From: Bryobacterales bacterium
Lineage (GTDB): Bacteria > Acidobacteriota > Terriglobia > Bryobacterales > Bryobacteraceae
Length of the DNA: 15,806 bases
Direction: 5' to 3'
Assembly: GCA_016789785.1 (NCBI GenBank)
Contig: JAEUQE010000061.1
Coordinates: forward strand, 22,958 to 38,763
The notes beneath the pieces are model-generated. The model saw nothing but the letters and a program-made list of their open reading frames with translations. It made no database searches and was not told the origin of the DNA. Of the stretch, positions 1-15,805 are shown piece by piece (position 1 is the first letter of the stretch; each line of letters begins with the position of its first letter). The translations under genes and the position numbers were made by a program.

Positions 1-259
1 TGTACTGCTTGATGAGATTGTTCTCGAGCGCGAGTGCTTCTTTTTCGTTGTCGACCAGGATGTAGTCGATGTCGTGGGCCTCGGAGATGAGAGTGCCGGT
101 CTTCATGTCGGAGAGCCGGTCATCGTTGAAGTAGCTGCGGACGCGGCTGCGAAGGTTCTTTGCCTTGCCCACGTAGAGCACTTCACCGGCGTGATCCTTG
201 TAGAGATACACGCCCGGCTGAACCGGCAACTGGCTGACTTTGTCCCTGAGATCCACCAT
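1..259 (-). CDS. uvrC: UvrC, excinuclease ABC subunit C (N-terminal part, cut by window edge)
   Basis: UvrC makes the dual incisions around bulky DNA lesions in the cytosolic UvrABC nucleotide-excision repair complex. Only the first 86 residues are in the window. They form the GIY-YIG nuclease domain: a QPGVYLYKD segment near residues 14-22 carries the GVY half of the signature, and the YVGKAKNLRSRVRSYF block follows at about 29-44. ALALENNLIKQY ends the visible part, and this block is typical of UvrC, in which a conserved Glu lies in the same helix. The start is the ATG at 259-257; a GGAAG lies almost against it, so the GTG one codon later is also possible. The gene diverges from padR. The GIY-YIG-only homologue Cho is less likely given the family-specific blocks, but the missing C-terminus cannot be checked. 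Confidence 0.92.
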   Translation of the reverse strand, partial: MVDLRDKVSQLPVQPGVYLYKDHAGEVLYVGKAKNLRSRVRSYFNDDRLSDMKTGTLISEAHDIDYILVDNEKEALALENNLIKQY

Positions 260-931: not shown

Positions 932-3529
932 ATGAAGTTCCTCCGCCGCCTCTGGCTCGGCCTATTCCGCCGCGAGCAACTGGACGCCGATTTCGACGCC
1001 GAGTTGCGATCGTATCTCGATCACGACATCGACCGCCGCATCCGTGCGGGCGCCGACCCGGCGACTGCCCGGCGGGAGGCGCTCGCCGCCGCCGGAGGCA
1101 TCGAGCCTGTCAAGGAGCAGGTTCGGGAAGGGCGCGCCGCGCATGCGCTGGACACGCTCGTCCGCGACGTTCGGTTCGGCGCGCGCCTTCTCTTCAAGCA
1201 TCGTGTCTTCACGAGCGCCGCGATCTTCCTGCTCGCATTGGGTATCGGCGCAAACACGGCGGTCTTCTCCGTCGTCAACGCGGTGCTTATCCGCAGCCTG
1301 CCTTATCCAGACGCCGGCAGGCTGGTCGTCCTCTATGAACAACGGCCGCTGGAGAACAACCTCCGCAATGTTGTCTCCGTTCCGGATTTCCTCGATTGGC
1401 GTGAGCAGAGCCGCAGCTTCCGCGCGATGTCCGCCGTGGTACACGACACGATGACCTGGCAGAGCCCAAGCGGCGCCGAACAGATCATGACAGGCATTGT
1501 TTCGCCCGAGTTTTTCGCGGTGCTCGGCGTGAAGCCGGAACTCGGCCGGGGCTTCCGTCCGGAGGCCGATCAACAGAACGCCGTGATCCTGACCCACGGC
1601 TTCTGGCAGCGGCGCTTCTCCGGCGACCCATCCGTCGTGGGTCAATCCATCACTCTCAACGGCTCCGCGCTCGAGATTGCCGGTGTGTTACCGGCGGGCT
1701 TCGAGTATCCGGTCCCCGACGTTGAACTGTTCAAGACGCTCTTCTTCCGCACGAGGGAGGGACTCGACCGCTCAAGCCACGTGCTACAGGTGGCCGCCCG
1801 CTTGAAGCCCGGAGTGACGCTGGCCGCCGCGCAGGCGGAGATGCATGGTATCGCCGCCCGCCTCGAGCAGCAGTATCCAGGCGATAACAAGGGACACGGC
1901 GTCAATGTAGTACCGATGCGCGACGTGCTGCTCGGGCCGATGGAGCGGCCGCTACTGATGCTGCAGGGCGCGGTCGCGCTGGTGCTCCTGATCGCGTGCG
2001 CGAACTTCGCCAATCTCCTCCTGGCGAGAACGCTGGCCCGCGAGCGTGAGTTCGACATACGGCTGGCGATCGGCGCGGGGCGAACCCGGCTGTTGCGGCA
2101 GTTGCTGATTGAGAGCACACTATTGGCGCTACTCGGCGGCACTGCTGGCATCGCGGTTGCTTACGTAGCGTTGCCGTTGCTGCGCGCGCTGGTACCGCCT
2201 GAGGCGCCGTTGCTCGGAGTGCGGACGGCCGAAGTTGATGTGAGCGTGCTCGGCGCCTGCCTGGCGGTTTCGCTCGCCTGTGGTCTCATATTCGGTCTCG
2301 CGCCGGCCTGGCGCGGGGCGCGGGGCACGATTCCGCAGCGGCCGCGACGACGGGACGTCTTTCGCAAGGTGCTGATCGCGACGCAGGTGGCGTTTTCCGT
2401 GGTCCTGTTGACGGGCGCCATACTGGCCCTGCGCAGTTTCGCTGCGTTGCGCTCCGTCGCCCCCGGGTTCGACGCCAGCAGCGTGCTGACGGCGCAAGTG
2501 GCGATTCCCTTTCGCCGCTACACGACAGCCGGGAGCGTGGGGCAGTACACGAGTCAATGGCTCGACGCGGTTCGTCGGTTGCCTGGTGTCAGTCACGCGG
2601 GCTTAACGTCGGCCCTGCCGCTGTCAGGCGCCGATGGGCGTCGCGGACTTGCGGTGGAAGGCGTGACGCCACCTGATCCGAACCAACCGCGCCGGGCCCA
2701 CATCCGCTGGGTCACGCCTGGTTACTTCGAAGCGATGGGTATGAAGATGGTCGCGGGCAGGGCCTTTCGGGATACCGATCGCGCAGGCGCCGCTCCGGTG
2801 ATGATCGTCAACCAAACGGCGGCCCGAATGTATTTCCCCGAGGGCCGCGCCGTGGGACATCGTGGCAAGCCCGGTGGAACGAAGGGCCCATGGAACGAGG
2901 TGGTGGGCGTCGTCGCTGACGTCCATCATTGGGGGCTCGATGTCGAGCCACGTCCCGAGCAGTATTACTGCCACTTCCAGGCGCCGTCTTGGATGGTGAA
3001 TCTCGCGGTGCGTTCCGCTGGCGACCCAGCGTTGTTGACGAACGCGATCCGCGCCGAACTGCATCGCCTCGACCCCCAGGTGCCGTTCGCACGCGTGATG
3101 ACGATGGAGCAATTGATGGCACGTTCGATCGCATCGGAACGTTCGGTCCTCTCGCTACTGAGCGTGTTTGCGGGAGTCGCCCTTCTGCTGACAGCAGCGG
3201 GGATCTGGGCCACGATGGCCTACTTGCTCTCGCAACGACGCCGCGAGATCGGTATCCGGCTGGCGCTGGGGGCGACGACCGGCGCGGTGGTACGTCAGGC
3301 GACGGGTCGAGCGATGCGCTTCGCCTTGTGGGGAATCGCCGCGGGTGTGGCTTTCTCGGTCGTCGCGCTGCGGCTGAGTTCGGTGACGTTATTCGGAGTG
3401 AATAACACGGATCCCGTGACGTGTTTCGTGGTGCCGGCTGTGCTCTTGGTTGTGGCTTGGCTGGCGAACTGCGTGCCGGCGTGGCGGATCGTGAGATCGG
3501 CGGGGTACACTGCGCTGCGGGAGGAATGA
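932..3529 (+). CDS. ADOP-family ABC transporter permease (MacB/FtsX-like)
   Basis: An 865-residue inner-membrane permease of the acidobacterial duplicated orphan permease family. The first ~80 residues are a cytoplasmic ADOP-type leader (FRREQLDADFDAELRSYLD, then an Arg/Ala-rich helix). TM1 is around 92-115 (AAIFLLALGIGANTAVFSVV), followed by a MacB-type periplasmic core to about 320, an FtsX-like block of three TMs around 340-460, a second TM-plus-periplasmic domain about 480-720, and a final FtsX block about 735-860. The length is normal for the family and there is no ATPase domain. The ATG follows padR by one base. ADOP permeases usually lack their own ATPase, and their substrates are unknown; a role in efflux or envelope stress is inferred from MacB similarity only. 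Confidence 0.93.
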   Translation: MKFLRRLWLGLFRREQLDADFDAELRSYLDHDIDRRIRAGADPATARREALAAAGGIEPVKEQVREGRAAHALDTLVRDVRFGARLLFKHRVFTSAAIFLLALGIGANTAVFSVVNAVLIRSLPYPDAGRLVVLYEQRPLENNLRNVVSVPDFLDWREQSRSFRAMSAVVHDTMTWQSPSGAEQIMTGIVSPEFFAVLGVKPELGRGFRPEADQQNAVILTHGFWQRRFSGDPSVVGQSITLNGSALEIAGVLPAGFEYPVPDVELFKTLFFRTREGLDRSSHVLQVAARLKPGVTLAAAQAEMHGIAARLEQQYPGDNKGHGVNVVPMRDVLLGPMERPLLMLQGAVALVLLIACANFANLLLARTLAREREFDIRLAIGAGRTRLLRQLLIESTLLALLGGTAGIAVAYVALPLLRALVPPEAPLLGVRTAEVDVSVLGACLAVSLACGLIFGLAPAWRGARGTIPQRPRRRDVFRKVLIATQVAFSVVLLTGAILALRSFAALRSVAPGFDASSVLTAQVAIPFRRYTTAGSVGQYTSQWLDAVRRLPGVSHAGLTSALPLSGADGRRGLAVEGVTPPDPNQPRRAHIRWVTPGYFEAMGMKMVAGRAFRDTDRAGAAPVMIVNQTAARMYFPEGRAVGHRGKPGGTKGPWNEVVGVVADVHHWGLDVEPRPEQYYCHFQAPSWMVNLAVRSAGDPALLTNAIRAELHRLDPQVPFARVMTMEQLMARSIASERSVLSLLSVFAGVALLLTAAGIWATMAYLLSQRRREIGIRLALGATTGAVVRQATGRAMRFALWGIAAGVAFSVVALRLSSVTLFGVNNTDPVTCFVVPAVLLVVAWLANCVPAWRIVRSAGYTALREE

Positions 3530-4854: not shown

Positions 4855-4870
4855 ATTCTCAAAAGAGAAT
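4855..4870 (+). promoter_or_regulatory. Hairpin over the start codon of the TPR gene
   Basis: ATTCTC (4855-4860), AAAA, GAGAAT (4865-4870) form a perfect 6-base stem with a 4-base loop. The 3' arm includes the purine-rich ribosome-binding stretch and the first two bases of the ATG at 4869, so folding would mask initiation. A regulatory role is inference; the stem is short. Confidence 0.35.
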
Positions 4871-5306
4871 GTCCCGCATCCGCATTCCGGCGTTTGTTCT
4901 TACGGCCCTATTGTCGCTGAACGCCGTCGCGCTGTCGCAGGAAACGAACCGGCAGGACACAAAGAAGGCTCAGGACGTCAAGCCTCCTCCCGATCCCGTG
5001 GAGCCGCCGGAAGAGGACGAGAGCCACAAGACGAAAGAATACGACTTCAATCCTCTGCAAGCCTCCAAGGAAATCAAGGTCGGCCAGTTCTATTTCAAGA
5101 AGGGCAGTTTCAAAGCGGCTGCCAAGCGCTTCGAGGAAGCCACCCGCTGGGATCCATCCTCGGCTGAAGCCTTCCTCCGGCTCGGCGAAACGCTCGACAA
5201 ACTGAAGGACGATGCCTCAGCGAAACAGGCCTACGCGAAGTATCTTGAGCTTGCGCCTGATGCCAAGAACGCCGCCGCGATCAAGAAGCGTCTCGGCATC
5301 AGGTAG
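4869..5306 (+). CDS. Secreted TPR-repeat protein
   Basis: A 145-residue exported protein. Residues 1-23 are a Sec signal peptide (basic start, hydrophobic VLTALLSLNAV core, likely cleavage after ALS before QE); no lipobox Cys is seen. Residues 25-60 are a charged, Pro-rich linker. Residues 67-145 hold two TPR-like helix pairs: KVGQFYFKKGSFKAAAKRFE with EATRWDP, and AEAFLRLGETLDKLKDDASA with KQAYAKYLELAP. TPRs mediate protein-protein contacts, so it is probably a periplasmic scaffold, similar in form to the TPR part of BamD-like proteins but much shorter. The start is fixed by the signal peptide, and the purine run AAAAGAGA just before the ATG serves as a weak ribosome site. The partner is unknown. 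Confidence 0.85.
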   Translation: MSRIRIPAFVLTALLSLNAVALSQETNRQDTKKAQDVKPPPDPVEPPEEDESHKTKEYDFNPLQASKEIKVGQFYFKKGSFKAAAKRFEEATRWDPSSAEAFLRLGETLDKLKDDASAKQAYAKYLELAPDAKNAAAIKKRLGIR

Positions 5307-5505: not shown

Positions 5506-6057
5506 CTATCGCGCGGTCACCGTTTTCACGAGCCGCTCCATCCCCAGTTCCCAGTCCGGAAACATGTCCACATACTGAATGGAGTCCGTGATCCGGGAAG
5601 GAACGCAACACTCTTCCAGACGCAAGGGAACGAAGAAGTTGTTGTCAATGGGACGCTGTTTCACACAATCGAGCGCATAGCGAAGCTCGGCCTGAAACTG
5701 GCCCCGCTTGCAGATGGAGTGCCGCGAGAACAGCGGCACGAAGAAGTCCGCCACGCTGATCGCGGCCTCGATTCGCCGGGGCCAGTTCTGTCCCGGTAGC
5801 AGTTTCTCCTTGTCGAGCCATGGATCGCACCCCTCCTCTTTCAAAGCGGCGAAGATCTTGCGCGCCTGCGGCAGATCCTCTTCCACGTAGGCAAGGAAGA
5901 CCTTCGGTTGCGTGAACGGCGTCAGCACGAGGTTTCCATCACTGGCCCGCTTCAGCGTGCCAAGTCCGTCGATTTCCAGGGCGACTCCTTCCTCCATGCA
6001 CTTCCGCAGAAATCGAATCACGCTTCGAGCGCTCACTCTCTGCCGTTGATCCTGCAT
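5506..6057 (-). CDS. HU-like half-domain fused to a TIR domain
   Basis: A 183-residue cytosolic protein in two parts. Residues 8-48 (ARSVIRFLRKCMEEG, VALEIDGLGTLKR) resemble the second half of an HU/IHF fold: the helix leading to the G-F-G-T-F-type strand pair, here GLGTL. Residues 51-180 are a TIR domain: KVFLAYVEED (first strand), DPWLDKEKLLPGQNW (BB-loop region), ISVADFFVPLFS, then KRGQFQAEL, where Glu124 is in the place of the catalytic Glu of NAD-cleaving TIR domains. No membrane segment is present. It starts 8 bases after the upstream HU-like gene, with GGAGG inside that gene's end as ribosome site, so the two are co-transcribed. Bacterial TIR proteins often act in defence by consuming NAD or making cyclic ADP-ribose signals; that role here is inference. 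Confidence 0.85.
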   Translation of the reverse strand: MQDQRQRVSARSVIRFLRKCMEEGVALEIDGLGTLKRASDGNLVLTPFTQPKVFLAYVEEDLPQARKIFAALKEEGCDPWLDKEKLLPGQNWPRRIEAAISVADFFVPLFSRHSICKRGQFQAELRYALDCVKQRPIDNNFFVPLRLEECCVPSRITDSIQYVDMFPDWELGMERLVKTVTAR

Positions 6058-6065
6058 ACCCGTGC

Positions 6066-6287
6066 TCAGCCTCCCTTCTTCCTTTCCGATCGGGAAGTCA
6101 CGATGCGCACTTCCTGTTGGGGCGCTTCCGCGGGCGTGAGTACCCCGAGTCCCGGGATCGGCACAGGCGCCCCACGCCGCAGATTCTTCAGAATTCGCAC
6201 CACCAGGCGGTCTAGTCCGTCCGCGGCAACGGCGGGCGGAACATCCGTATGGAGGGCGAGGTTTTTGATCAGGTCCTTGTTCCTCAT
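6066..6287 (-). CDS. Small HU/IHF-like protein
   Basis: A 73-residue protein. MRNKDLIKNLALHTDVPPAVAADGLDRLVVRILKNLRRG matches the two-helix N-terminal half of HU (compare K-x-DLI-x-x-hA, then the ALD-type helix), and PVPIPGLGVLTPAE matches the LPGFGTF strand pair. The long DNA-binding arm of normal ~90-residue HU (the RNPQTG region) is absent; the protein ends in a basic tail (SRSERKKGG). It may therefore dimerise or act as an adaptor more than bend DNA. It is the first gene of a two-gene unit with the TIR fusion. The ATG at 6287 gives a standard HU start; an in-frame ATG at 6308 is possible and adds seven residues. HU family call is by motif only. Confidence 0.75.
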   Translation of the reverse strand: MRNKDLIKNLALHTDVPPAVAADGLDRLVVRILKNLRRGAPVPIPGLGVLTPAEAPQQEVRIVTSRSERKKGG

Positions 6288-6613: not shown

Positions 6614-6790
6614 ATGAAGAAGCTTCTGAGCATCATGCTCGGCTTGACGCTGGTCCTCGGCACGGTTTCCACCACCTTCGCGCAGGAAGGCGAGAAGAAG
6701 GAAGGCGAGAAGAAGGAAGAAGGCAAGAAGAAGAAGGGCAAAAAGAAGAAGGCGCCGGCCGAAGGCGAAGAGAAGAAGCCCACCCGCTAA
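6614..6790 (+). CDS. Small secreted Lys-rich protein (58 residues)
   Basis: ATG at 6614 is preceded by AGGAGAG nine bases upstream, and TAA is at 6788-6790. Residues 1-23 form a clear signal peptide (MKKLLSIMLGLTLVLGTVST, then TFA before QE). The exported part is only about 35 residues and almost all Lys, Glu and Gly, built on EGEKK repeats; the first two copies are a perfect 15-base tandem repeat (6686-6700 and 6701-6715). A strong intrinsic terminator follows 31 bases after the stop, so the gene is a self-contained unit. Tiny Lys-rich exported proteins of this sort are common in acidobacterial genomes but have no known role. Binding of nucleic acid, polyanions or the cell wall is only a guess. 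The low-complexity part may vary in length between strains. Confidence 0.82.
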   Translation: MKKLLSIMLGLTLVLGTVSTTFAQEGEKKEGEKKEEGKKKKGKKKKAPAEGEEKKPTR

Positions 6791-6895: not shown

Positions 6896-8698
6896 CTACG
6901 TTCCTCGCTGCGCCGGTGGCGCTTCGCCTTGACCCTGTTGTTCGGGTTCCTGCTCCTGGTGCCCGGTCCACATAGGCAATGTGAAGTAGAAACGGCTGCC
7001 CTTCCCCAACTCACTCTCCACCCACACCCGGCCGCGATGCCCCTGGATCATCTCCCGGATCAGCGCCAGGCCCAACCCCGTGCCCCCGATCCGGCGGGTA
7101 TCGGCGTTGTCCGCGCGCACAAACTTCGCGAACAGCAGCGGGATCACTTCTGCGGCGATTCCGATTCCTTCATCGGCCACCATCACCTCGACTTCGTCTG
7201 CCCTCGTGTTGACCCGGATTCGAATCGTGCCGCCTTGCGGAGAGAACTTCACGGCATTCGAGACCAGATTGCTCAAGACCTGGCGTAGCCGGTCGGGGTC
7301 GCCATGGACCTGCGGTCCCTCCGCCGCGGAATCGACGTCGAACTGATGTTTGCCCATCTCCACCGAGAAGACCTCCACGGTTTCGCGGATCAGACGGTGG
7401 ATGTCGACCCGCTGTAAGTTGTAATGCATGCGGCCCGATTCGATGCGCTGAAGATCGAGAAAGTCGTTGATCAGTTGGGTGAGGCGCGCCGATTCCCGGT
7501 GGATGATGCGCAGAAACTCCTTCTGCTCCTCGCGCGGATAGTCGGTGTCAAGCATGAGTTCGGCAAAACCCAACAGGGACGCAAGCGGCGTTCGCAGTTC
7601 ATGCGACACCGTCGCCACCAACTCATCCTTGAGCTTCTCCGCCTTGCGCCGCTCCTCGACTTCGATCTGCAACTCGCGAGTGCGCTCCAGCACACGTGCT
7701 TCGAGCGCCGAATGAGCCTGCCGCAACTCCCGATCGGCGCGCTTGCGCTCAATCACATGCCCGACCTGAATGCCGATCTGCCCAAGTTGATGCAGCGTCG
7801 GCACGTCGAAGCGGATATGCCGTTCGCAATAGAATTCGAGCACGCCCGCCATTTCGGACTGCACGAAAACCGGAATCGCCATGGCCGTTCCAATCCGCGG
7901 ACTCACGTCCAACAGGCAGAGTGCGCGGCGTTGCGTGCGCGCCTGCGCCAGCAACCGGCCAGTGACTTCATCGTCCATCTCCAGTTGCTCGCGCAGCAAC
8001 TGGCAGTCATCGCACATCACATACCAAATCGGCTCCGTCTGCTCCTGCTCCCCGAAGAGGAGACCCCGGCCGACCGACAGCCCCGCATGCAACGCGACCA
8101 TTTCGAGCACGGCGGCCAAACTGCCTGCAATCGAATCTGCCGCGTTGCAGGATTCCGTTACCTTCTGCAGCAGTTCCATCAACTCACGCTGCCGGATCAG
8201 CATGCGCTCCCGGTCGGAACGCTTCGTGATGTCGCGGAACGTCAACACGACGCTGCGGTCACTGCTCGGCATTTCGACGGGGCGCGCGGTGACTTCGAGC
8301 AACCGCGGGCGGCCATTGCGGGTGTGGAACTCGTAGGTGGTCGCATCGAGGGAACCGCCCGAAAGCCCGATGGTCACCGGATGATCGCTATTGCTGACGC
8401 GGCAGCCCAGCATCGAAAGGGGTACCAGATCCACTACGGGCTGCCCAAGAATCGAACTCCGCCCTTTGCCAGACAGAGCTTCAAATGGCGGATTGCACCA
8501 CTCGAGCCGGCCCCTGCCGTCTGTCCAGGCAAGCGCCTCTTGAATCGCCGCGAGGGCGACATCCATCTTTCCAAGCCTGATCCGAAGGTCGTTGACGAGT
8601 GGTTCGAGTGCGGGAGCTGGCTCTGCAGGAGAGGGCGCCGCCGCAACCGGCCTCCCCGTTTCAAAGGGACGGAATGTCAAGAATCGCGGAGCCTCCAT
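6896..8698 (-). CDS. PAS-GAF sensor histidine kinase
   Basis: A 600-residue kinase with no membrane segment, so cytosolic. A Pro/Ala-rich leader (1-30) is followed by a PAS domain at about 45-160 (LAWTDGRGRLEWCNPPFEALSG, ending in VVLTFRDITKR), a GAF-like domain at about 168-318, a coiled coil at about 318-355, HisKA with His366 in ATVSHELRTPL, and HATPase_c with N481 (NLVSNAVKF), the DEGIGI box (509-514) and GGTGLGLAL (538-546). All catalytic boxes are intact. The C-terminal 25 residues are Gln/Glu/Pro-rich. GAF contains a CDDC motif (229-232) that could bind metal or sense redox state, which is inference. It lies 108 bases after the response-regulator gene on the same strand and is its likely partner. 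Signal unknown. Confidence 0.93.
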   Translation of the reverse strand: MEAPRFLTFRPFETGRPVAAAPSPAEPAPALEPLVNDLRIRLGKMDVALAAIQEALAWTDGRGRLEWCNPPFEALSGKGRSSILGQPVVDLVPLSMLGCRVSNSDHPVTIGLSGGSLDATTYEFHTRNGRPRLLEVTARPVEMPSSDRSVVLTFRDITKRSDRERMLIRQRELMELLQKVTESCNAADSIAGSLAAVLEMVALHAGLSVGRGLLFGEQEQTEPIWYVMCDDCQLLREQLEMDDEVTGRLLAQARTQRRALCLLDVSPRIGTAMAIPVFVQSEMAGVLEFYCERHIRFDVPTLHQLGQIGIQVGHVIERKRADRELRQAHSALEARVLERTRELQIEVEERRKAEKLKDELVATVSHELRTPLASLLGFAELMLDTDYPREEQKEFLRIIHRESARLTQLINDFLDLQRIESGRMHYNLQRVDIHRLIRETVEVFSVEMGKHQFDVDSAAEGPQVHGDPDRLRQVLSNLVSNAVKFSPQGGTIRIRVNTRADEVEVMVADEGIGIAAEVIPLLFAKFVRADNADTRRIGGTGLGLALIREMIQGHRGRVWVESELGKGSRFYFTLPMWTGHQEQEPEQQGQGEAPPAQRGT

Positions 8699-8806: not shown

Positions 8807-9232
8807 CTAACTGCTGCTCTCCAGCACGGTTCCCTCCAGGACGGGCGGCTGCTCTCTGGCATGTGTTTCCTGCGAGAACACTTCCTGCACGAGCGCAATC
8901 AGTGACCGTGGGCTGAAGGGCTTGGCCAGATACTTGTCCACACCCGCGATGCGCGCGGCCTCCTCGTCGCGGGCCTGCCCGCGCGCGGTCAACATGATGA
9001 TCGGAATCTTCGCCGTCTCCGGGTCTTCGCGCAACTGCGCCGCCACTTCCAGCCCCGTCACTTTCGGCATCATCCAGTCAAGCAACACCAGGTCCGGGGG
9101 CGCGGCTTTGGCGATCGCCAGTGCTTCTTCGCCATCGCACGCTTGCACCGTCTCCAGTGCCAATGGCCGCAGCGCCGTTTGGATCATCAGGCGCAGCGCA
9201 TATTCGTCGTCCACAATCAGAACTCGCTTCAT
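8807..9232 (-). CDS. Single-domain response regulator (CheY-like)
   Basis: A 141-residue receiver protein. MKRVLIVDDE gives the acidic pair Asp8/Asp9, LVLLDWMMP the phospho-acceptor Asp52, MLTA the conserved Thr82 and YLAKPF the conserved Lys104. After residue 121 there is only a short, polar tail, with no DNA-binding or enzymatic output domain. It therefore probably acts through protein contact or as a relay to another regulator. It is encoded directly upstream of the histidine kinase and is probably co-transcribed with it. The ATG at 9232 is chosen because MKRVLIVDDE is the standard receiver start; GGAG lies only three bases before it, and an in-frame ATG at 9259 is a weaker option. It diverges from the PLP-enzyme gene. 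Confidence 0.93.
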   Translation of the reverse strand: MKRVLIVDDEYALRLMIQTALRPLALETVQACDGEEALAIAKAAPPDLVLLDWMMPKVTGLEVAAQLREDPETAKIPIIMLTARGQARDEEAARIAGVDKYLAKPFSPRSLIALVQEVFSQETHAREQPPVLEGTVLESSS

Positions 9233-9309
9233 GAACTCCAGTCGCCTCTGTTGTCTCATCGGGAGAAATGGGGAATCCGTGAGCGAGGGTGAACCTGAAC
9301 CGGTGTACC

Positions 9310-9325
9310 CCTTACAGTAGTAAGG
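9310..9325. promoter_or_regulatory. Palindrome touching the start of the PLP-enzyme gene
   Basis: CCTTAC-AGTA-GTAAGG is a perfect 6-base inverted repeat whose last base is the first base of the GTG at 9325. In the divergent spacer it could be an operator or an RNA stem over the start. If the true start is the GTG at 9289, it lies inside the coding region. Confidence 0.35.
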
Positions 9326-10422
9326 TGAGCGCAAACAGCACCGCCATCGGACTCCCCGTCGCCCAACTCGAAACACCTGCCCTCTGTCTGAATTTCGACA
9401 TTTTCCGGAAAAATGTCGAAAACACGACAGCACTCCTCCAGCAGCATCACCTGCAATGGCGGCCTCACATGAAAGGACAGAAAGCGGTGGAACTGGCGAA
9501 GGAGGCCATTCGCGCCGGCGCCATTGGAGTGACTTGTGCCACGCTCTACGAAGCGGAAGCCTTCGCTCAAGCAGGCATCGCAGGCATTCTCATCGCCAAT
9601 CAGATTGCGGGTGCGCGCAAACTGGCGCGCCTTGCCAGACTGCAGCGCATCACTCCTGTGATCGCGGCCACCGACAGCGCCGAGCACGCTTCCGCGATGC
9701 ATGAAGCAGCCTGTTCGGAAGCCGTTGTGATCCCCGTGCTGCTGGAAGTGAATGTCGGAATGAATCGTTGCGGCGTCCAACCGCACGAATCCGCCCTTGC
9801 ACTGGCATCGCAGGTGGAAGCGATGCGGGGATTGCGGCTGGCGGGCATCATGGGCTGGGAGGGGCATGTGCTCGCATTCGACGATGAGGAGAAGCAGCAA
9901 CAGGTGAATCTCGCCATCGGCGCGCTGGTCCGCACCGCTCAGTCGATTCGCGATGCCGGCATGGAGTGCGCAATCGTCTCAGCAAGCGGCAGCGGGACGT
10001 TCCGCCAATCGGCGGGTATTCGCGGGCTCACCGAGGTGCAGGCCGGAGGCGCGGTGTTCAGCGATCTCAGCTATCGCAAATGGGGCCTCGATCATGAGTT
10101 CGCACTCTCCATATTGACGCGCGTCGTCAGCAGACCGTCCTCCACTCGCATCATCGTGGATGGCGGATTCAAAACGATGAGCACGCAACACGGCATGCCG
10201 CAGCCGGTGGGTGTTGGGCCGCTGAAGAGCCTGGTGCTGTCCGCCGAACATGGCAATCTCGAACTTGCCGCGCCTGATGACACGTTGCGGCCCGGCGATC
10301 TGGTGGAGTTTGTGCCCGGCTACACCGATAGCACGGTGTGTTTGCACGATGAGATGTGCGTGATCCGCAACGGTGTTCTGGAAGCGGTGTGGACGATTCC
10401 GGGCCGCACGGGACGGCGTTAA
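9325..10422 (+). CDS. D-threonine aldolase / DSD1-like PLP enzyme (alanine racemase fold)
   Basis: A 365-residue cytosolic enzyme of the fold-type III PLP family. QLETPALCLNFDIFRKN opens the barrel, and WRPHMKGQKAVELAK carries the PLP-binding Lys (about residue 50, in the RPHxKxxK motif). VLLEVNVGMNRCGV and ASGSGTF are further barrel motifs, and a C-terminal beta domain ends in RPGDLVEFVPGYTDSTVCLHDE. D-threonine aldolases and D-serine dehydratases bind a divalent metal through His-x-Cys/Asp in the last segment; here the His position is Tyr (GYTD), which marks a subfamily and makes the exact reaction uncertain. The GTG at 9325 fits the family start; the GTG at 9289 would add 12 unlike residues. 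It is convergent with the sialidase-like gene and divergent from the response regulator. Confidence 0.85.
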   Translation: MSANSTAIGLPVAQLETPALCLNFDIFRKNVENTTALLQQHHLQWRPHMKGQKAVELAKEAIRAGAIGVTCATLYEAEAFAQAGIAGILIANQIAGARKLARLARLQRITPVIAATDSAEHASAMHEAACSEAVVIPVLLEVNVGMNRCGVQPHESALALASQVEAMRGLRLAGIMGWEGHVLAFDDEEKQQQVNLAIGALVRTAQSIRDAGMECAIVSASGSGTFRQSAGIRGLTEVQAGGAVFSDLSYRKWGLDHEFALSILTRVVSRPSSTRIIVDGGFKTMSTQHGMPQPVGVGPLKSLVLSAEHGNLELAAPDDTLRPGDLVEFVPGYTDSTVCLHDEMCVIRNGVLEAVWTIPGRTGRR

Positions 10423-14646: not shown

Positions 14647-15465
14647 ATGGCTGCCACGGTTTGGAAAGGGCATGTGACGTTTGGACTGGTGTCGTTGCCG
14701 GTGCGATTGCACAGTGCGGCGCGGGCCGAGTCCATCAGTTTCAACCAGCTTCATCGCACCGATCACTCGCGGGTCAAGCAGGTGCTGTTCTGCCAGGCCG
14801 AGGACAAGCGCGTGGAGCGCTCCGAACTGGTGAAGGGCTACGAGTACGAGAAGGACCGCTATGTGGTCATCGAAGAAGAGGACATCAAGAAGATCATGCC
14901 GAAGACGGCCAAGGTGATGGAGATCCTCGAATTCGTGAAAGAGGCCGAAGTGGATCCGATCTACTATGAGTCGTCGTATTATGTAGCGCCGGATGAAGCC
15001 GGCGAGAAGCCATATGCGCTGCTGCTTGAGGCATTGAAGAAGAGCGGCTATGTGGCGCTGGCGAAGATCACGATGCACAATCGCGAGCACGTGGTGATTC
15101 TGCGGCCGGCGAATCAGGGCATCACGCTGCACACGATGTACTACGAAGATGAGCTGCGAAAGACGGAGTCGTTCCGCACGGATACGTCGGCGGTGAAGGA
15201 TAAGGAACTGGCGATGGCGACGATGCTGATCGAGTCCATGGCGGGTCCATTCGAGCCGCAGAAGTATCACGACACGTACCGGCAGAACCTGCGCGGCATG
15301 ATTGATGCAAAGATCGCGGGACGCGAGATTGTCGCGCCGCAGGAAGTGCAGCCGACGAAGGTGATCGACATCATGGACGCGCTGAAGGCGAGTTTGGCGG
15401 CGTTGAAGAAGCCCGCGGCGGTGGAGGCGGAAGAGACTCCGAAGGCGCGGAAGGCGGGGTCGTAG
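14647..15465 (+). CDS. ku: Bacterial Ku (non-homologous end joining)
   Basis: A 272-residue Ku homodimer subunit that threads onto double-strand DNA ends and recruits ligase LigD. The N-terminal MAATVWKGHVTFGLVSLPVRLHSAA is diagnostic, followed by ISFNQLHRTDHSRVKQ, the KGYEYEKDRYVVIEEEDI segment, and the core through about residue 235. The C-terminal tail (about 236-272) is short and Lys/Ala/Glu-rich, as in minimal bacterial Ku. AAGGAGG at 14631-14637 is a perfect Shine-Dalgarno nine bases before the ATG, so translation should be strong. It diverges from the SDR across a 103-base spacer. No LigD is present in the window; the next gene is a VapB-like antitoxin. Confidence 0.96.
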   Translation: MAATVWKGHVTFGLVSLPVRLHSAARAESISFNQLHRTDHSRVKQVLFCQAEDKRVERSELVKGYEYEKDRYVVIEEEDIKKIMPKTAKVMEILEFVKEAEVDPIYYESSYYVAPDEAGEKPYALLLEALKKSGYVALAKITMHNREHVVILRPANQGITLHTMYYEDELRKTESFRTDTSAVKDKELAMATMLIESMAGPFEPQKYHDTYRQNLRGMIDAKIAGREIVAPQEVQPTKVIDIMDALKASLAALKKPAAVEAEETPKARKAGS

Positions 15466-15553: not shown

Positions 15554-15805
15554 ATGCCGCTATCCTTGAACGATCCAGAGGCGGAATATCTCGCGCAGCT
15601 ACTTGCTGAGCGGACAGGCGAGTCGGTTGACGAGGTTGTGGTGACCGCGCTCCGGCAGCGCTTGAAGGAGATTCTAAAGGGTGAGACCGGGAGCGTCAGC
15701 GCCAGATTGCTTGAGATCGGCCGGGAGTGCTCGGCGATGCCTGACATTGACCGACGCTCACCGGAAGAAATCCTTGGCTACGATGACAGGGGAATCGTCC
15801 GTTAG
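15554..15805 (+). CDS. VapB-type antitoxin (Rv0623/PSK transcription-factor family)
   Basis: An 83-residue antitoxin. MPLSLNDPEAEYLAQLLAER starts with a ribbon strand followed by helices (TGESVDEVVVTALRQRLKE), and the C-terminal SPEEILGYDDRG is the hallmark tail that inserts into a PIN-domain VapC toxin. This matches the Rv0623-like/PSK family, whose DNA-binding N-terminus represses its own operon. GGGAGGAGGG just before the ATG is a strong ribosome site. The stop TAG lies one base from the window end, so a vapC gene, expected to begin within a few bases, is outside the window. It follows ku by 88 bases. The name vapB is a family label; the partner was not seen. Confidence 0.85.
   Translation: MPLSLNDPEAEYLAQLLAERTGESVDEVVVTALRQRLKEILKGETGSVSARLLEIGRECSAMPDIDRRSPEEILGYDDRGIVR

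Follow-up and report, generated by a model that had tools for sequence, protein, structure and literature searches.

DNA-binding HU proteins carry an RxGRNP-type motif in their beta-arm, and a survey of 2017 reportedly distinguishes clades of HU domains. TIR domains are NAD-depleting effectors in many defence systems, according to the review PMC10952713, and bacterial catalytic TIR proteins have mainly been studied as immune effectors. For one such system, the TIR-APAZ/Ago (SPARTA) protein, PMC10474274 gives E77A as the catalytic mutant and states that NADase activity requires assembly of the TIR domains via the BB-loop.

The locus considered here brings the HU and TIR folds together in a two-gene unit of about 780 bp. 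It lies on the minus strand of a window (the whole stretch of DNA that was analysed, 15,806 nucleotides) from a bacterium of the order Bryobacterales. Only 8 bases separate a short HU-like gene from the next gene, which codes for a protein with an amino-terminal HU-like half and a TIR domain (HU-TIR):

6066..6287, minus strand: HU-like gene, 73 aa (open reading frame, PF00216, predicted structure, Foldseek)
5506..6057, minus strand: HU-TIR gene, 183 aa (open reading frame, TIR_2 at 86 bits, predicted structure)
5917..6030, minus strand: predicted half-HU domain of HU-TIR, residues 10-47 (structure model, hhalign, PF18175)
5509..5913, minus strand: TIR domain of HU-TIR, residues 49-183
5782..5820, minus strand: BB-loop WLDKEKLLPGQNW, residues 80-92 (alignment of 81 sequences)
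5686..5688, minus strand: catalytic-position Glu, E124 (conservation, alignment with Crt SPARTA)

Coordinates, lengths, the 8-base gap, the BB-loop and E124 are exactly those of the preliminary description of this DNA. The start codon of HU-TIR is not certain, since a database copy that is 99% identical, the closest one, has its annotated start 12 residues further in.

The gene pair is real. A homologue search found 1555 relatives of HU-TIR at E<=1e-3. HU-like adjoins HU-TIR in 199/201 sequences (141 distinct by their TIR stretch; the sets overlap), and the two exceptions run into a contig end, probably that of one and the same contig (7344 bases each). This conservation excludes a chance origin or a mis-called open reading frame. 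With each species represented by one genome, a scan confirmed 134 loci. Among the best 80 of these HU-like lies directly upstream of HU-TIR in 79, as it does in the window, and the partner is present in 119 of 120 further stretches. In 78 of the 80 loci a TIR start is possible no more than 30 bp from the HU stop, a count that is biased towards short gaps because the nearest start was taken. The acidobacterial pair also occurs in three metagenome bins labelled as Arcobacter, Acidimicrobiia and Bordetella parapertussis, labels that are probably wrong.

The HU-like protein of the window matches PF00216 Bac_DNA_binding with 25.7 bits (cut-off 22.4). At the lenient threshold of E<=1 the same profile is matched by 78 of 80 family members (63/63 and 15/17), leaving two without a match. 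The structure model features helices at residues 3-14 and 18-37 and strands at 42-44 and 48-50, followed by a tail, with no DNA-binding arm; its confidence is modest (pLDDT 68.6, pTM 0.41), and its best Foldseek matches are E. coli HU. The fold is only loosely kept in some of these proteins, 8/80 of which miss the G-x-G turn pattern. The RxGRNP-type arm motif is absent from all 80, so that the protein is, as first proposed, an arm-less relative of HU. Full-length HU/IHF-type genes reside elsewhere in the genomes searched (three in 9/10, two in 1/10), which identifies the HU-like gene as an extra, specialised copy.

With no arm motif, the DNA sensing that had been suggested for the system finds no support, and the sole hint of nucleic-acid contact is a basic tail, net positive in 70/80 HU-like proteins. 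The same tail, together with the small first gene, the short gap or overlap and the constant pairing, might also be expected of a toxin-antitoxin-like unit in which HU-like is the inhibitor, perhaps an autoregulator, and the TIR protein an NAD-depleting toxin freed when HU-like is degraded. Type II toxin-antitoxin modules are usually mobile and patchy, whereas the present pair is near-core and vertically inherited (see below), and this explanation appears quite unlikely.

The predicted structure of HU-TIR has a pLDDT of 83.7, and its amino terminus has a helix at residues 10-22 and strands at 27-29, 33-37 and 43-47, without alpha1 and without arm. The best Pfam match of this half is PF18175 HU-CCDC81_bac_2, to which the window sequence scores E 0.05 within the whole protein and E 0.0036 when excised, both below the cut-off. 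The HU case for this half is thus carried by the family: from the 81 sequences 70 halves were excised, of which 69 hit PF18175 at E<=1 (best value 1.2e-6), and hhalign aligns the half-HU profile to the HU-like profile with 97% probability (E 5.9e-11). The VIA fold search covered mostly residues 48-183 and hardly tested this part by fold; its HU nature is indicated by the profiles and the predicted strands. The preliminary description had assigned an HU-like fold to both segments, a proposal to be given up if no HU/IHF match were found, if the pair were unconserved or if residues 1-50 were not HU-like. None of these outcomes occurred, and Pfam, profile comparison and predicted structure agree on the assignment: both parts are homologous to HU.

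That the two HU-like parts may pair with each other had also been raised. Mean-field DCA was run on 141 distinct pairs (Neff 116) and compared to 73 control pairings in which partners of near relatives were swapped. The ten strongest couplings between the proteins average 5.09, above the swap maximum of 4.65, while the single strongest one is practically equalled (6.42 vs 6.41 in swaps). The half-HU part occupies 22% of the columns of the TIR protein and gathers 36% of the top 50 couplings, a share matched by 2/73 swaps; for the top 25 and top 100 couplings its share is matched by 5/73 and 1/73 swaps, respectively. A first run gave the same picture against 12 global and 12 local shuffles. The half-HU part is however variable (entropy 1.42 vs 0.99 for the TIR domain) and the average difference between swapped partners is 35%, so that phylogeny is not fully removed from these values. 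Mutual information on 80 pairs was set aside, as it looked dominated by clade-specific columns. The co-evolution signal is thus weak but concentrated on the half-HU part, where it weakly supports a contact between the two HU parts, in keeping with the pairing first envisaged.

The TIR domain is complete. It matches PF13676 TIR_2 over profile positions 1-122 of 122 with 86 bits (cut-off 28), and all 120 aligned sequences match the same profile. Residues W80, D82, G89, Q90, N91 and W92 are invariant in 81/81 sequences. E124 is conserved in 80/81 loci, the remaining one having Asp, and in 120/120 sequences of an alignment of the window protein with 119 of the 1555 homologues. The complete TIR domain with its active-site residues, as originally read from this locus, is therefore intact. 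Glu77 of Crt SPARTA aligns with E124. This Glu77 is probably equivalent to Glu77 of the protein of PMC10474274, whose entries 8i87 and 8i88 are another SPARTA chain (8fex) than Crt SPARTA. The near-invariance of E124 and of the BB-loop residues argues for selection on an enzyme activity, and HU-TIR would then cleave NAD or produce cyclic ADP-ribose.

Most of the 13 solved chains found with the profile of this domain are SPARTA TIR proteins, and the best fold matches are SPARTA, TIR-STING, SARM1 and MyD88; a single-sequence PDB search with the window protein gave weak TIR matches only (best E 0.089). The best PADLOC models for the TIR protein are Argonaute-linked TIRs, with E 2.7e-14. The profile and PADLOC matches, added to the depletion of NAD by TIRs in many defence systems (PMC10952713), would suit anti-phage abortive infection, in which an HU-type complex fixed in the lineage recognises phage DNA or a phage DNA structure and unleashes the TIR NADase. 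The missing DNA-binding arm motif weighs on the other side, as does the scan of 10 window open reading frames with PADLOC, which gave matches only for a histidine kinase and a response regulator.

Distribution bears more heavily on this question. The order concerned is identified as Bryobacterales by record titles, most of which read Bryobacterales, Bryobacteraceae or unspecified Acidobacteria. Matches to HU-TIR at E<=1e-20 were found in 190/257 of its genomes, 12 candidates being scored per genome so that some copies may be missed; six of the 190 are weaker than 1e-45, and 184/257 remain when these are removed. The uvrC gene, used as yardstick for assembly incompleteness, was found in 243/257 genomes and missing in 14. 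The 67/257 genomes without a match are thus more than incomplete assemblies explain, and the pair is not essential across the whole order. It seems to be absent from a part of the order: of the 21 genomes G237-G257 none has the TIR, while 19 have uvrC. An even sample of the phylum, with 8 candidates scored per genome, gave matches at E<=1e-45 in 3/396 genomes, each of which belongs to the order set as well, and a phylum-wide gene was ruled out. As far as searched, the pair is restricted to one order. It is usually single-copy, with exactly one full-length copy in 20/20 genomes (a second, weaker TIR is present in two of them) and two to four matches in 13/190 matching genomes of the order. No relative was confirmed on viral contigs, where one of the searches was single-sequence and reached close relatives only, and plasmids yielded only distant TIRs, below 60% identity; a plasmid or phage gene was ruled out accordingly.

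The history of the pair was followed in 35 loci by comparing an HU+TIR tree with a uvrC tree. The two trees have 16/32 splits in common, against an average of 0.24 and a maximum of 3 with shuffled labels, and of the 18 uvrC splits with good support the HU+TIR tree recovers 13. Splits were preferred to the correlation of uvrC and TIR distances (rho -0.003), which is uninformative because TIR distances level off at depth. The pair is inherited vertically, with local rearrangement, and is no mobile island. Neither its distribution, trees and neighbours nor the defence models scanned in the window are those of a mobile anti-phage island. The designation as a defence system is not supported for a pair that is vertical, usually single-copy, found in one order, often near uvrC and a TPR gene, and not seen on viral contigs or plasmids. 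Near-core inheritance within a single order, with neither a confirmed viral relative nor a close plasmid one, makes the anti-phage explanation unlikely in spite of its SPARTA-type relatives.

The neighbourhood of the pair was examined on both sides. Features on the uvrC side and the divergent gene are:

2..259, minus strand: start of uvrC (excinuclease C), cut by the window end; frequent downstream neighbour on the same strand
565-930: PadR regulator, between uvrC and the TPR gene
932-3529: large permease-like gene, named from sequence only, between uvrC and the TPR gene
4869..5306, plus strand: TPR gene, convergent to HU-TIR; often found in synteny with the pair but not proposed to be part of it
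6614..6790, plus strand: gene of a small Lys-rich protein, 58 residues, divergent from the pair

In the window uvrC starts 5.2 kb from the pair. A same-strand downstream uvrC is present in 37/74 sequences that extend 2.5 kb or more on that side; when shorter sequences are included 40 have uvrC, and in 36 of these it lies no further than 850 bp from the TIR match (median 486). This association could fit a non-enzymatic scaffold whose TIR domain serves for assembly only, for instance as an organiser of the nucleoid or an accessory of UvrC-linked repair. A TPR gene on the opposite strand in 40/40 loci with uvrC argues against a shared operon, and uvrC adjacency is inconstant, with 12 changes on the TIR tree; uvrC was not retained as an operon partner. 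The near-invariant catalytic-position Glu and BB-loop residues likewise argue against a scaffold, an explanation that is very unlikely.

The 58-residue neighbour begins like a signal peptide and ends in a Lys/Glu-rich tail. Its relatives lie upstream of the pair in 35/76 sequences with enough upstream DNA, and none was found elsewhere in the flanks examined. A match exists in 12/20 genomes, in six of which the best one is off the pair's contig. On these grounds it was not upheld as an obligatory third component. Other recurrent neighbours look metabolic or housekeeping. Also encoded in the window are a PAS-containing histidine kinase (8698..6896, minus strand) and a response regulator (9433..8807, minus strand), both upstream of the pair on its strand. 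About 8 kb from the pair is a Ku end-joining gene (14647-15465, plus strand; PF02735, 171 bits). It is followed by an Rv0623-like (PSK_trans_fac) antitoxin-type gene (15554-15805, plus strand); a toxin partner, if it has one, would be encoded past the end of the window.

The explanation preferred for these observations is a two-subunit, chromosomally fixed TIR module in which an HU-type hetero-complex controls a TIR NADase; its probability is put at about 0.45. It draws on the complementary anatomy of the two proteins, HU-like having alpha1-alpha2-beta1-beta2 and HU-TIR one helix and three strands, and on their adjacency, the DCA couplings, the kept E124, the single copy and the uvrC-like tree. 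Counted against it are the modest pLDDT of HU-like, its loose fold, the weak co-evolution, the 67/257 genomes without a match and the 13/190 with more than one. In this two-subunit module HU-like would supply the HU alpha1-alpha2 pairing core missing from HU-TIR, and the two proteins, possibly mixed with HU-like homodimers, would form an arm-less HU-type body. This body may govern how the TIR domains are spaced and assembled, and hold them apart at rest. On a trigger the TIR domains would stack through the BB-loop, and Glu124 would cleave NAD or make a cyclic ADP-ribose signal. The core-gene-like inheritance of the pair makes an intrinsic trigger (nucleoid or DNA damage, or other cell stress) more probable than a single specific phage. 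NAD cleavage, the control of the resting state and the trigger are inferred.

A lineage-core guard of the nucleoid is doubtful. In it a split-HU heterodimer would hold the TIR NADase at or close to the chromosome and make NAD destruction or cyclic ADP-ribose signalling depend on the condition of the cellular DNA, as a housekeeping use of TIR and not a mobile defence. For the two-subunit module, the retention of a TIR protein through most of the order (184/257) with a constant arm-less HU partner suggests a physiological use of TIR. The constancy of this partner, wherever the sequence permits the check, suggests a new way of controlling TIR chemistry, and the pair hints at a nucleoid-protein fold that has been divided between two polypeptides and reused as an assembly module. 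The small size of the unit makes binding, NAD cleavage and toxicity testable together.

The literature searched, mostly without subscription papers, nowhere describes the HU-like/HU-TIR pair, in agreement with its having been called undescribed, and no Pfam or NCBIfam family matched by the window proteins joins HU to TIR. Among known HU families, the HU-like protein differs from HU/IHF (PF00216) in lacking the arm and its RxGRNP-type motif. The CCDC81-type and HU-HIG families (PF18175, PF18291) are likewise divergent HU domains; in Pfam the half-HU part matches the former best, with the window protein below its cut-off. Thoeris ThsB and other TIR defence proteins resemble HU-TIR in having a TIR fold with a catalytic-position Glu. 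The PADLOC match of HU-TIR to ThsB is weak (E 2.2e-4), and while Thoeris has ThsA beside its TIR protein, no ThsA match was found among the 10 window open reading frames and the partner here is HU-like. SPARTA has an Argonaute and an APAZ domain, whereas HU-TIR ends at its TIR domain and PADLOC gave no Argonaute match among the same 10 frames. The partner of the TIR protein in the present pair is instead an arm-less HU protein, and its distribution is vertical and near-core.
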